Shown here in pieces: positions 154-5,078 of a stretch of DNA of 5,078 bases. A model generated the notes under the pieces. The model had not been told where the DNA came from. It saw nothing but the letters and a program-made list of their open reading frames with translations, and searched no databases. This DNA comes from Nitrospinae bacterium RIFCSPLOWO2_12_FULL_45_22 (GTDB lineage: Bacteria; 2-12-FULL-45-22): NCBI GenBank assembly GCA_001803565.1, contig MHDQ01000245.1:491-5568 (forward strand). The letters are read 5' to 3'. A program made the translations under genes and the position numbers. Numbering within the stretch: position 1 is the first letter of the stretch; every line of letters begins with the position of its first letter.

Positions 154-1017
154 TTGAGAAGGAAAAAATTAACAAAAAAAATTATTAAAAAAGGCAAATA
201 TTTTTTTAGGAGATATACCTGTCATTTGAGGATATTGCCTGATTTTCTTATAGTCGGAGCCCAAAAATGTGGAACAAGCTCTCTTTACAGGAACTTGGTC
301 AGACATCCGTCAATTGTTCCCGCATTCGTTAAAGAAGTGCATTTTTTTGATAATAGCCGTAATTACTTTCAAAAAGGAGTCGGGTGGTACAAGGCTCATT
401 TCCCTTCTTTACTGTATAAATACTATATTACGCATATCTGTAAAAATGATTTTATCACCGGAGAGGCAAGTCCATTTTACCTATTTCATCCGCATGCGCT
501 TAGGAGAATATCAGAACTGCTACCGGAAGTTAAGATAATCGTCATTTTAAGAAACCCTGTTGACAGGGCTTATTCTCACTACCACCATGAAGTCGAAAAG
601 GGGCGTGAAACACTATCTTTCGAAGACGCCGTAAGAATGGAAGAAGAGAGGCTCCGCGGGGAATTTGATAAACTTATGGCAGACGAGAAGTACACAAGCC
701 TGAATTACAGTTGTTATGCATACCTTTTGCGGGGAATATATGTTGACCAGCTAAAACGTGTGTACAGCTACTTTGAAAAGAGCCAGGTCCTTATTTTGAA
801 GAGTGAGGATTTTTTTAAAGATTCACAATCCACTATTGATAAAGTATTTCAATTCTTAGGCTTGCCTGGATGGCAGATGGAGCATTTCAAAAAGGCCAAT
901 GTCGGTTCTTATCAAAAAATGAATAGCGCCACAAGAAATCGGTTGCTCAATTATTTTGAGCCTCATAACCACAAGCTCTATGAATATCTGGGCATTAATT
1001 TTGGCTGGGATAAATAG
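154..1017 (+). CDS. PAPS-dependent sulfotransferase, heparan-sulfate type, copy 1
   Basis: This is a 287-residue cytosolic-type sulfotransferase expected to move a sulfuryl group from PAPS to a hydroxyl or amine of a glycan or lipid; the acceptor is unknown. The 5'-phosphosulfate loop is at residues 31-43 (FLIVGAQKCGTSS), with K38 as the PAPS-contacting lysine. KEVHFF at 60-65 carries E61, aligning with the catalytic base of heparan sulfate N- and 3-O-sulfotransferases. The 3'-phosphate motif LRNPVDRAYSHY is at 132-143, with R133 and S141. The C-terminal part (about 194-287) has the family's GxY...L pattern, an 'EDF...FLGLP' stretch and a closing 'PHNxxLYxxLGxxFGW'. Length fits a single-domain enzyme. 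The N-terminus is lysine-rich with no signal peptide. TTG is taken as start because the site aligns with the ATG of the downstream paralogue. All key residues are present, so it should be active. Confidence 0.9.
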   Translation: MRRKKLTKKIIKKGKYFFRRYTCHLRILPDFLIVGAQKCGTSSLYRNLVRHPSIVPAFVKEVHFFDNSRNYFQKGVGWYKAHFPSLLYKYYITHICKNDFITGEASPFYLFHPHALRRISELLPEVKIIVILRNPVDRAYSHYHHEVEKGRETLSFEDAVRMEEERLRGEFDKLMADEKYTSLNYSCYAYLLRGIYVDQLKRVYSYFEKSQVLILKSEDFFKDSQSTIDKVFQFLGLPGWQMEHFKKANVGSYQKMNSATRNRLLNYFEPHNHKLYEYLGINFGWDK

Positions 1018-1097: not shown

Positions 1098-1967
1098 ATG
1101 ACAGGTGGAAAAACCAAAAAAAATTTTATTAAAAAAAGCAGATTTCTTTACAGACTATCAACCTGCCATTTGAGGATATTGCCTGATTTTCTCATAGTCG
1201 GAGCTCAAAAATGTGGGACAACTTCTCTTTACAGGAATTTGGTCAAACATCCATCAATTGTCCCCGCATTCGTTAAAGAGGTACATTATTTTAATAATAG
1301 CCGTAATTACTTTCAAAAAGGCTTAGGCTGGTATAAGGCGCACTTCCCTACTTTACTGTATAAATATTATCGCAAACATATAGGTAAAAATGATTTTCTC
1401 ACCGGCGAGGCAAGTCCATTTTACATGTTTCATCCGCATGCACCCAGAAGAATTTCAGAACTGCTACCGGAAGTTAAATTAATCGTCATTTTAAGAAACC
1501 CTGTTGACAGGGCTTATTCTCATTATTACCATGAAGTCGAAAGGGGACGTGAACGTGAAACAGTATCTTTCGAAGACGCTATAAGAATGGAAGAAGAGAG
1601 GCTTTGCGGGGAATTTGATAAACTAATGGCAGACGAGAAGTACACAAGCTGGCATTACAATCATAATTCATACCTTTTGCGGGGAATATATGTTGACCAA
1701 CTAAAGCGTGTGTACAGCTACTTTGACAAGAGCCAGATACTTATTTTGAAGAGTGAGGATTTTTTTAAAGACTCACAATCCACCATTGATAAAGTATTGC
1801 AATTCTTATGCTTGCCTGAGTGGCAACTGAAGGATTTCACAAAGGACAACGTAGGTTCTTATCAAAAAATGGATCCCGCGACAAGAAGCCGATTGCTCGA
1901 TTATTTTAAACCTCACAATCAAAGACTGTATGATTACCTGGGTATCAACTTTGGATGGGAAAAATAA
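1098..1967 (+). CDS. PAPS-dependent sulfotransferase, heparan-sulfate type, copy 2
   Basis: This 289-residue paralogue of the preceding gene differs at about 43 of 266 aligned positions after residue 21 by hand count, so about 84% identity in the core. Residues 1-21 are much less conserved but still basic. All family motifs are kept: the phosphosulfate loop with K38 (GAQKCGTTS), E61 in KEVHYF, and R133 and S141 in the 3'-phosphate motif. Differences cluster at residues 185-191 (WHYNHNS against LNYSCYA in copy 1) and around 241-249, away from the PAPS motifs. This suggests a changed acceptor preference rather than loss of function (inference). Two extra residues (RE) follow R151-E152. It begins with ATG behind a strong ribosome binding site, 80 bases after copy 1, and is probably co-transcribed with it. 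The real acceptor, glycan or lipid, cannot be told from sequence. Confidence 0.9.
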   Translation: MTGGKTKKNFIKKSRFLYRLSTCHLRILPDFLIVGAQKCGTTSLYRNLVKHPSIVPAFVKEVHYFNNSRNYFQKGLGWYKAHFPTLLYKYYRKHIGKNDFLTGEASPFYMFHPHAPRRISELLPEVKLIVILRNPVDRAYSHYYHEVERGRERETVSFEDAIRMEEERLCGEFDKLMADEKYTSWHYNHNSYLLRGIYVDQLKRVYSYFDKSQILILKSEDFFKDSQSTIDKVLQFLCLPEWQLKDFTKDNVGSYQKMDPATRSRLLDYFKPHNQRLYDYLGINFGWEK

Positions 1968-2005: not shown

Positions 2006-3817
2006 TTGAATAGATTCATAGAAACAATTTGTCAATACAGCGCTACGCTCAGGCTGATAGCCACCGATTCGGTCTGGAGATTTAAGAAGGGGTCTGCCTT
2101 TATTCTCCTAACAGGCTTTCTGGGGACTTCTTTTCAATTGCTGACTATCGGTCTCGCTATCTATTATGCGCGTGCGCTGGAAAAAGGTGAACCTGTTAAG
2201 TTGCTTGGATACGAATTTCAGGCACGGACCTCGGTTGCCCTTCTTTTCCTTTTAGGCGCCGGGGTTTTTTTCTTTCTTTTGCTGTCCGCATGGTTGATCT
2301 ATTTTTCAAAGACAAAGACTATTGCATTGATGAGGAAGTACGAAACGTTTTGTTCAAAAAGGATATTCTCCCTGTTTGGCTCCAGTGTGAAAATATGGAC
2401 TCCCCCCCACCAGAACTTTTGTGATGACAGAACTATTTTCAGAATTGTACGCTTCGACTCCAGGCATAACAGCAAGGCACTGGGAATACTTCTGACGACG
2501 ATTGTTCCCGCCGTAACGTTACTGGTGTCTGTCTGCACGCTGTTTTACACCAACGTTTCGTTAACGTGTCTCATGATGGTTTTTTTTGGAATAGCTTCAT
2601 TTTTTCAATACAAAATAAATATTATTGGTATCAGAGATTCCGCCCGGTTGGAAAATTGTATAAGAGGATGTGCGTTGGAATATAGACAGATTATTCAACG
2701 GCAAAAAAGTATAGCTATGCCTTTGCCGAAAAATGAATCATGGTTTGAGAAGATGCTTTTCTCTTCAGGCAAAATCAGGCAATATAAAGATGCTTACACA
2801 GGCCGCCTGAAGGTGCTGGAAACCAGCCACCTTGTCAGCAACATATTATTTGCAATTACTATTTTTGTGCTCCTCCTGATTATGGGCTCCCGCATTATCT
2901 TCAGGGCGGATAACTGGAGCAGCTTGATTGTTTATCTGATTGCCTTACGCTTTTTTCTGGTTAATATAAGACAATTGAGCAGGCAAATTACCCATCTCAA
3001 CAGGTTTTATCCGCAAATAAAAAGATATTTTCAATTTCTGAATAATACGAAGGCATTGCAGGGAAACGGCGATCTGCGTTCGACACCCTATATGATACTC
3101 GCGGAGAAACCCATTGAAAATTCACTGAAAAATTGGCAATTACGCAAGGGAAGCAGGATCGGGCTAATCAGCGCGGTGAAGCTTAATCGTTACACCCTCG
3201 CATTTTTTATTCACTGCCTGCTTGGACATTCAAAGCAAGCCGCAGAAAATGCCCTTAGTTCTGCATGGTTCATGACATCGAATTACGGGAATGTGTATAC
3301 TTCATTAAGGGAGTTTCTGTGTCTTCCCTCCGGATATTCCTGGCAAGACCTCCGGGATGAATTGAAAGAGACAGAGATGTGCGATAGGCTCGAACAACAA
3401 CTTTCCGGTGATTTAGACAGCTACATTTCACCAGAAAAATGGAACCAGGCGGACGCTGACCTGAAAGTTGCACTGGCGTTGCTCGGCGCAATGCATTCTG
3501 ATAAGTATTGGATACTGCTTGAAGAGAATGTATTGCAGCACCTTCCCGATGCGGCGCTAAAATATTTCATCAATCGTCTTTCTGACAGAATTCTGGTGAT
3601 AGTTTCTTGTCCAAACACAAAAACACCGGGAAAGTACGGTGAAGAGGTAATTGCGGTGCTTTCAGATAATGGCGTTGCAGGGTTGGGATCTGCTGCGTGG
3701 TTTGAGGAAAACCGGCACAAAATCTTTGATACCCCGAAGCATATTCAACAGAATGATTCTTATATAAGTGACAGTGGTGCCGATAGCGAAGATTTGTTTG
3801 ATGACGAGGATATTTAA
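2006..3817 (+). CDS. ABC exporter-like membrane protein with degenerate (pseudo) nucleotide-binding domain
   Basis: This 603-residue protein has the layout of an ABC half-exporter. The membrane part covers about residues 28-345, with hydrophobic stretches near 31-54, 77-100, 158-200, 277-298 and 304-320. Residues about 360-575 follow the NBD pattern. The Walker A position aligns without gaps (LISAVKLNRYTL, 387-398) but has lost the glycines; Lys is R395 and Ser is Y396. The Q-loop Gln falls on T424, no LSGGQ is present (about 478-487), Walker B is WILLEEN (502-508) with Asp replaced by E506, and the H-loop His is C535. ATP hydrolysis therefore looks impossible for this half. The frame is intact, so it is not a simple pseudogene. 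Residues 585-603 are acidic. TTG at 2006 is the first start after the in-frame stop at 2000; later starts would cut the first membrane helix. A partner role beside an active ABC half, or a scaffold role, is inferred. Confidence 0.75.
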   Translation: MNRFIETICQYSATLRLIATDSVWRFKKGSAFILLTGFLGTSFQLLTIGLAIYYARALEKGEPVKLLGYEFQARTSVALLFLLGAGVFFFLLLSAWLIYFSKTKTIALMRKYETFCSKRIFSLFGSSVKIWTPPHQNFCDDRTIFRIVRFDSRHNSKALGILLTTIVPAVTLLVSVCTLFYTNVSLTCLMMVFFGIASFFQYKINIIGIRDSARLENCIRGCALEYRQIIQRQKSIAMPLPKNESWFEKMLFSSGKIRQYKDAYTGRLKVLETSHLVSNILFAITIFVLLLIMGSRIIFRADNWSSLIVYLIALRFFLVNIRQLSRQITHLNRFYPQIKRYFQFLNNTKALQGNGDLRSTPYMILAEKPIENSLKNWQLRKGSRIGLISAVKLNRYTLAFFIHCLLGHSKQAAENALSSAWFMTSNYGNVYTSLREFLCLPSGYSWQDLRDELKETEMCDRLEQQLSGDLDSYISPEKWNQADADLKVALALLGAMHSDKYWILLEENVLQHLPDAALKYFINRLSDRILVIVSCPNTKTPGKYGEEVIAVLSDNGVAGLGSAAWFEENRHKIFDTPKHIQQNDSYISDSGADSEDLFDDEDI

Positions 3818-3840: not shown

Positions 3841-4641
3841 ATGAATAACCGCTATTCTTTTGAAGAAGTTAAAGCTTCAGCCAAGCTCATAGACGCCTGG
3901 TGGACCGTTAAAGTTATTGACCCCGTTGCCTTTCGGCTTACCTACCTTCTTGCCAATTACACCAGACTTACTCCCAACCAGATTAGTTTCTGTGCCCTGA
4001 TCCTTGGGTTAGCAAGCGCCTATTTCTTCCTGAAAGGCGATTACATGCACCTTGTGCTGGGCGCAATAGTCATGGAACTGTCTTTTGTCTTTGATTGCGT
4101 GGATGGCAAGATTGCGCGTTTGAAGAAAGCGGGAACCAAATTCGGAGCTTACTGGGATTTTATTCAGGACAGGTTAGTACAGTTTGCTGCCCTCTTTGCC
4201 TTAATTTGGAGTCAGTGTCAGCATACAGGCAATACGGATTTTTGGATGCTGGGGATGACCTACGTTTTTGCAGACGCATTCCATCGCACAACCTCGTTCC
4301 ATATGCAAAATTTGGTTGCGGAAGAAGAGGGCAGGATTCCTAGGAAGCGTACGAAAAAGGAAATTGAGGAAATTCTGGCCAAATATGCAAAAACCCACAG
4401 CACCTGGAAGTCCTTTATCAAACGCTGGATGGTTAAAAACCGGCTGACAAGCTTTCCTACAACAATTGAAACCAGGGTGCTGCTGTTTTTCGTCTCCACC
4501 ACCCTTAACCAAGTTTTCTGGGGTCTGGTGCTGGCAGTCGCTGCACTGGCATTCCTTACCGTACTCAAAAGTATAATGTCCCTGCGTCACCTTTACAATA
4601 TTTCTTCAAATAAGGAAAGGGATTTTCCTAATATTGACTGA
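3841..4641 (+). CDS. CDP-alcohol phosphatidyltransferase family membrane enzyme
   Basis: This 266-residue integral membrane enzyme displaces CMP from a CDP-alcohol with a second alcohol, forming a phosphodiester, as in phospholipid head-group or inositol-phosphate synthesis. The full family signature is present: D85-xx-D88-G89-xx-A92-R93-x8-G102-xxx-D106-xxx-D110, the aspartates that bind the two metals. It follows the usual LTPNQIS lead-in (43-49) to the first core helix. Hydrophobic segments lie at about 47-65, 69-86, 110-126, 133-147 and 211-243. A charged loop (about 158-200, rich in Lys, Arg and Glu) separates the last two groups. Substrates cannot be set from sequence; the adjacent nucleotidyltransferase suggests a non-standard CDP-alcohol such as CDP-inositol, CDP-choline or a similar head group. 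It starts 23 bases after the ABC-like gene with a weak purine-rich site (AGAGAAAG, 3821-3828), consistent with an operon. Confidence 0.9.
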   Translation: MNNRYSFEEVKASAKLIDAWWTVKVIDPVAFRLTYLLANYTRLTPNQISFCALILGLASAYFFLKGDYMHLVLGAIVMELSFVFDCVDGKIARLKKAGTKFGAYWDFIQDRLVQFAALFALIWSQCQHTGNTDFWMLGMTYVFADAFHRTTSFHMQNLVAEEEGRIPRKRTKKEIEEILAKYAKTHSTWKSFIKRWMVKNRLTSFPTTIETRVLLFFVSTTLNQVFWGLVLAVAALAFLTVLKSIMSLRHLYNISSNKERDFPNID

Positions 4642-4650
4642 TAGATTAGG

Positions 4651-4675
4651 TGACTTTAGGATTTCCTTGAAGTCA
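4651..4675 (+). other. Hairpin between the CDP-alcohol gene and the nucleotidyltransferase
   Basis: TGACTT (4651-4656) is perfectly complementary to AAGTCA (4670-4675), and an inner AGG (4658-4660) can pair with CCT (4665-4667) around an ATTT loop. No T-run follows, so Rho-independent termination is not supported. It overlaps the -35-like element of the putative promoter at 4667-4695 and might be an operator or attenuating structure (inference). Confidence 0.3.
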
Positions 4676-4695
4676 ACAAACTATAATTATATAAT
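4667..4695 (+). promoter_or_regulatory. Putative sigma70-type promoter, possibly giving a leaderless mRNA
   Basis: TTGAAG (4667-4672) is separated by 17 bases from a perfect TATAAT (4690-4695). Transcription would be expected to begin near 4702, which is the A of the ATG of the next gene. No Shine-Dalgarno sequence is seen ahead of that ATG, which fits a leaderless transcript. A second TATAAT lies at 4682-4687 without a good -35. The AT-rich setting makes chance matches possible. Confidence 0.4.
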
Positions 4696-4701
4696 CAAAA
4701 C

Positions 4702-5078
4702 ATGAAAGTACTATTTCTAGCCGCCGGACTTGCCAACCGGCTTCGCCCCCTGACAAATAAAAAAACCAAGACCCTAATTGATTTAGGTGGAAAATCTATT
4801 ATGGAACATTCCCTGGAATCGCTGACAAGTCGTGGTTTTAGGGATTTTGTCGTTGTTTCAGGACACGGACACGAGTTCCTGAAAGAAGAGACCGAATCCC
4901 TTTCCAGGAAACTGGATTTTAAATACACCATTATCTTTAATCCGGATTTTGAAAAGAAAAACAATTGTAGTTCGGTTTTATTGGCCATTGATCATCTTGA
5001 TGACCACGTGCTGCTTATTAACTCTGATGTGGTTTACGACCCGGTAATTCTGGATGAAGTAGTTGATAAGTTCGATAC
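4702..5078 (+). CDS. Nucleotidyltransferase, cytidylyltransferase-like (partial, N-terminal 125 codons)
   Basis: The open frame starts at ATG 4702 and runs off the right edge. The Rossmann-like start LFLAAGLANRLRPLT (4-18) and TKTLIDLGGKSIMEH (22-36) match the sugar-phosphate nucleotidyl-transferase / NTP_transf_3 fold. R13 and K23 are the conserved nucleotide-contacting residues, and INSDV (106-110) carries the metal-binding D109. The pair NN at 87-88 followed by SSVLLA resembles the 'NN-x-x-S-L-x-x-A' segment of phosphocholine and inositol-1-phosphate cytidylyltransferases rather than glucose-1-phosphate enzymes. It is therefore likely to make a CDP-activated alcohol for the upstream CDP-alcohol phosphatidyltransferase (inference). 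Oddities are loss of the middle glycine of GxGxR (GLANR), Thr for the usual Pro before K23, and Ser for Gly before D109. The C-terminal half is missing, so fusion to another domain cannot be excluded. Confidence 0.8.
   Translation, partial: MKVLFLAAGLANRLRPLTNKKTKTLIDLGGKSIMEHSLESLTSRGFRDFVVVSGHGHEFLKEETESLSRKLDFKYTIIFNPDFEKKNNCSSVLLAIDHLDDHVLLINSDVVYDPVILDEVVDKFD

Follow-up and report, generated by a model that had tools for sequence, protein, structure and literature searches.

A family of ABC exporter homologs, mainly from Planctomycetota, that lacks the Walker A, signature and H-loop motifs

We describe a family of membrane proteins that, by profile comparison, descends from type IV ABC exporters and whose alignments show a family-wide loss of catalytic motifs. 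The family forms one clade under purifying selection, separate from canonical exporters. One member, the pseudo-ABC protein, is encoded in the window, our term for the whole 5,078-nucleotide stretch analyzed here (Nitrospinae bacterium RIFCSPLOWO2_12_FULL_45_22, contig MHDQ01000245.1, positions 491 to 5,568), in a frame that is intact over 603 codons, as the original prediction had it, and opens with TTG. Its gene looks like that of a working, repurposed protein and not like a broken gene; judging from its motifs, the protein cannot be an ordinary ATP-driven pump. The interval singled out by the original prediction, 3083-3730, corresponds to residues 360-575 and so to the nucleotide-binding domain (NBD), which follows a transmembrane domain (TMD). 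The window is laid out as follows.

154..1017, + strand: sulfotransferase gene (PF00685/PF13469; domain search)
1098..1967, + strand: sulfotransferase gene, 80% identical to the one at 154..1017 and directly upstream of the pseudo-ABC gene (domain search and comparison)
2006..3817, + strand: coding sequence of the pseudo-ABC exporter half, putatively ATPase-dead, 603 aa, TTG start (open frame; 17 homologs; full-length profile match to BmrA)
2006..3040, + strand: TMD, residues 1-345 (hhalign to canonical exporters; long helices in a low-confidence model; more conserved than the NBD)
3053..3745, + strand: pseudo-NBD, residues 350-580 (hhalign with shuffle control; 50 listed Foldseek matches from a weak model)
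3170..3196, + strand: former Walker A, SAVKLNRYT, residues 389-397 (family alignment, one distant row ambiguous)
3266..3283, + strand: former Q-loop, WFMTSN, residues 421-426, without Gln (alignment)
3302..3319, + strand: SLREFL, residues 433-438, remnant of the TVRENI segment that follows the Q-loop (alignment)
3431..3466, + strand: former signature region, PEKWNQADADLK, residues 476-487, without LSGGQ (alignment)
3506..3529, + strand: former Walker B, YWILLEEN, residues 501-508, with Asp replaced by E506 and with E507 at the catalytic Glu position (alignment)
3590..3619, + strand: former H-loop strand, ILVIVSCPNT, residues 529-538, with His replaced by C535 (alignment)
3779..3814, + strand: acidic C-terminal tail, residues 592-603 (in most members; D599 in 17/18)
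3841-4641: CDP-alcohol phosphatidyltransferase gene (domain search)
4702-5076: start of a nucleotidyltransferase gene, cut (domain search)

Searched singly against Pfam, NCBIfam and the PDB, the window protein returned nothing significant, only empty or noise-level results, and the members of alignment A3 fit no Pfam family. NCBIfam exporter models matched a few relatives weakly, the best being MsbA at 9.8e-5. Descent from ABC exporters is settled at the level of the family profile, which, where single-sequence searches had failed, matched BmrA in an hmmsearch of the PDB across profile positions 89-602 (E 2e-5); it also matched the isolated NBD TM_0288 (E 0.007). When aligned by hhalign with 15 canonical exporters drawn from the relatives' genomes, the family reached E 1.3e-17 over its whole length, 5.5e-9 over the TMD and 1.7e-8 over the NBD, and by these comparisons the window protein is homologous to type IV ABC exporters over both domains. 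The original prediction had staked its assignment on an ABC match of the C-terminal half, and the NBD alone indeed matched canonical exporters, scoring 67.6; once insertions were removed the score was 64.1, whereas 100 column shuffles reached at most 32.7 and the reversed profile 15.5. On this profile evidence the descent of the NBD from the ABC fold exceeds chance. Two AlphaFold models, each from a four-row alignment, had pLDDT values of 41 and 50 and were confident for the helical part of the NBD only. The matches listed by Foldseek for both of these low-confidence models were all ABC proteins (E about 1e-3 or worse, TM at most 0.41), giving the predicted ABC fold weak support.

Aligned with the 15 canonical exporters, the window protein has replaced the Walker A consensus G-x-x-G-x-G-K-S/T-T by SAVKLNRYT, in which Lys has become R395, Ser has become Y396 and every Gly is gone, and it lacks both the Q-loop Gln and the H-loop His. 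These losses are shared: GxxGxGKS/T is missing from 18/18 members, the H-loop His is found in 0/18, and LSGGQ is missing from all members whose sequence covers the signature region. The substitutions named in the original prediction (R395, Y396, the lost glycines, no Q-loop Gln, no LSGGQ, E506 and C535) are thus borne out by the alignment. Its wording that every catalytic motif had been lost holds for those motifs but goes slightly too far for the catalytic Glu, whose position after Walker B, E507, remains Glu both in the window protein and in the eight complete relatives closest to it, and is lost in distant members; it is overstated also since the whole family has Arg in place of the Walker A Lys. 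Among the 603 columns of the alignment, R395 is the sole residue identical in all 18 members, a count fairly given as 17 to 18 because the alignment of the distant member L033 is ambiguous, needing a three-residue gap and shifting in the joint alignment with canonical exporters. An acidic C-terminal tail is present in most members of the family and absent from canonical exporters.

One scan of genome contigs yielded four relatives with 53-83% identity, and profile searches of Planctomycetota added further members, giving 17 besides the window protein, with identities from 80 to about 20%, and 18 in the final alignment. Matches occurred in 11/392 Planctomycetota sampled, in 10/75 genomes of one class and in 8/298 of another, two of the last eight being canonical exporters; such sparse occurrence, in a minority of genomes, fits an accessory function. 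Apart from the window's gene, 386 genomes outside Planctomycetota gave the family profile weak partial matches only, of 37 bits or less and mostly with Walker A, and a search of a literature collection found no description of such a family. For non-saturated pairs, dN/dS was 0.10-0.19, with the TMD below the NBD in most pairs, and the TMD is the better conserved half. In trees of 17 members and 14 canonical exporters, the family fell on one side of a single branch, with support of 100/100 for full-length sequences and 100/99 for the TMD only, values to be read with caution given the long branches; because the TMD-only tree gives the same clade, the grouping does not depend solely on the degenerate NBD. 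The original prediction had asked whether the motif losses are conserved in homologs under purifying selection, or whether homologs with intact motifs would mark this copy as a decaying allele; the losses recur in the 17 homologs found here, the non-saturated pairs show purifying selection, and none of the 18 members has the motifs. Together, the NBD match, the shared losses and purifying selection support the repurposing that it had anticipated, without settling which of the roles it listed (regulatory subunit, scaffold or ATP-free flippase) applies.

The closer clade of the family is located in clusters of sulfotransferase and glycosyltransferase genes. In eight genomes of this clade, 23 PF13469 sulfotransferase genes, counted by hand from profile matches, lie at most 10 kb from the pseudo-ABC gene against 0.31 expected, with 7/8 genomes contributing; because sulfotransferase genes tend to occur in groups, this enrichment marks an association with the cluster and not proof of direct interaction. 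The window's own bin holds only two PF13469 genes, both of them the tandem pair beside the pseudo-ABC gene. Other neighbors in closer-clade loci include glycosyltransferases, a Wzy_C ligase, WcaJ-type initiating sugar transferases and unassigned genes. The pseudo-ABC gene shares four bases with the sulfotransferase gene upstream of it in L004 and L006, an overlap that suggests coupled translation. In the sulfotransferase-linked loci, genes for Wzx-type flippases (PF13440/PF01943) were absent from the contig of the pseudo-ABC gene or, where that contig is a whole chromosome, from within about 80 kb of it; Wzx genes are present elsewhere in these genomes. Distant members sit outside sulfation clusters, beside asparagine synthetase-like genes, a methyltransferase and a glycosyltransferase, and one of them, in G486, has no sulfotransferases nearby; sulfation therefore cannot be the whole story.

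The reading we favor, which we hold at a little under even confidence, is that the protein is an ATP-independent membrane subunit, probably homodimeric, in the assembly of mostly sulfated glycans, where it would bind, present or passively flip a lipid-linked glycan. An ancient Planctomycetota clade of exporter-shaped membrane proteins would have lost ATP hydrolysis, most simply once, and kept the remainder. As a homodimer in the cytoplasmic membrane, the protein could hold a polyprenyl-linked, possibly sulfated, glycan intermediate in its TMD cavity, while the cytosolic pseudo-NBDs and acidic tails might dock or position cytosolic sulfotransferases and glycosyltransferases. Any movement of the glycan would not depend on ATP, being either passive or driven by polymerization or ligation outside, and the present role of R395 would be structural or lie in binding an anion (a nucleotide, for instance PAP, or the phosphate of a glycan or lipid), not in catalysis. 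Against a flipping role, the Wzx genes elsewhere in these genomes could do the flipping. We propose more tentatively, as a conjecture on the history of the clade, that ATP hydrolysis was lost early in Planctomycetota and gave rise to a carrier, flippase or platform that serves sulfated surface glycans independently of ATP, with the fixed Arg repurposed.

Decay or a sequencing artefact is barely credible: the pseudo-ABC frame of the relative L006 is broken mid-gene at L006:6981-7086, which reflects either a short deletion or an error in assembly, but the other members have intact frames, the family falls in one clade, and strong purifying selection (dN/dS as above) with losses common to all members leads us to reject this explanation for the family. 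We also consider it rather improbable that the protein is the degenerate half of a heterodimeric exporter whose canonical half, encoded elsewhere, hydrolyzes ATP, as in TM287/288 or TAP. Heterodimeric exporters often have one degenerate site (PMC7756269), and canonical exporter halves are present in each genome checked. Yet each composite ATP site combines Walker A from one half with the signature from its partner (PMC7756269), and because the pseudo-ABC half lacks both, pairing with a canonical half would leave neither site complete. The original prediction had suggested looking beyond the window for such a half; none is encoded near any copy examined. A PF00664 search in five genomes found no canonical ABC half adjoining the pseudo-ABC gene, 256 kb of context held no ORF with Walker A plus signature, and the nearest exporter half lies more than 600 kb away in one single-contig genome and about 140 kb away in another. 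The lack of a complete ATP site in a heterodimer, together with the better conservation of the TMD, makes a homodimeric membrane carrier or platform the simplest reading.

The main rival to that carrier or platform, in our judgment unlikely, is a pure regulator or sensor, in which the pseudo-NBD would bind a nucleotide or phosphosulfate (ATP, PAP or PAPS) through R395 without hydrolysis and control a glycan-sulfation complex. It would account for the invariance of R395 and for sulfotransferases being the most consistent neighbors, and the Walker A Lys to Arg change has a precedent in the degenerate site of human ABCG5/G8 (PMC7756269); however, the P-loop glycines that hold phosphate are lost, and the TMD, as the more conserved half, points to a role in the membrane. 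We give an equally low chance to the idea that the protein is not specific to sulfation and serves the assembly of surface glycans or glycolipids in Planctomycetota more broadly, as a general scaffold or carrier in the membrane that different clusters have recruited. Such a scaffold would suit the distant members, with their asparagine synthetase-like, glycosyltransferase and methyltransferase neighbors, whereas the close clade, which is better sampled, is linked to sulfotransferases in 7/8 genomes tested.

Degeneration of ATP sites in ABC proteins is well documented, though it normally affects a single site. The pseudo-ABC protein resembles BmrA and MsbA in its full-length profile alignment, with TMD, NBD and segments in the same order, and differs from them in lacking Walker A, the Q-loop Gln, LSGGQ and the H-loop His. 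It shares with TM287/288, TmrAB and TAP a degenerate NBD kept under selection, but those exporters keep one complete site, whereas the pseudo-ABC protein would leave both composite sites incomplete and has no partner gene in its vicinity. SUR1/SUR2 and CFTR likewise put the ABC fold to a role other than pumping, but, unlike the pseudo-ABC family, they retain recognizable nucleotide-binding motifs. With PglK-type ABC flippases and Wzx flippases the protein may share the movement of lipid-linked glycans, and WcaJ/Wzy-type neighbors occur in several pseudo-ABC loci; PglK, however, is an ATP-using ABC transporter (PMC5395944), and the Wzx fold is an unrelated one. A conserved clade with both composite sites dismantled would imply that the exporter fold can persist without its engine, and would provide a natural setting in which to ask what the transmembrane part does by itself. 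The pseudo-ABC gene may also serve as a marker, and is a candidate component, for bacterial glycan-sulfation clusters.

The window's contig (L002, G000:C245; 5568 bp) belongs to an assembly of 321 contigs that is 85% complete. Its tetranucleotide profile correlates better with planctomycete relatives (r 0.947) than with the mean of sampled contigs from its own bin (0.855). The closest relatives of the pseudo-ABC protein are all from Planctomycetota, and the bin is placed in a phylum of two genomes in the set used. The contig may be misbinned or transferred, and its origin leaves the conclusions on the family unaffected.

Some further features of the loci can be recorded here. The genes in 3841-5076 of the window match the two halves of a fused model, NF041135 (inositol-1-phosphate cytidylyltransferase/DIPP synthase), as if split. 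Among the distant members, L079 and L080, from two genomes, lie directly 3' of an asparagine synthetase-like gene. In two distant genomes a protein of about 700 aa (L030:3099-5219 and L031:11113-13134), with a sulfotransferase-like middle and an unassigned N-terminal region, adjoins the pseudo-ABC gene.
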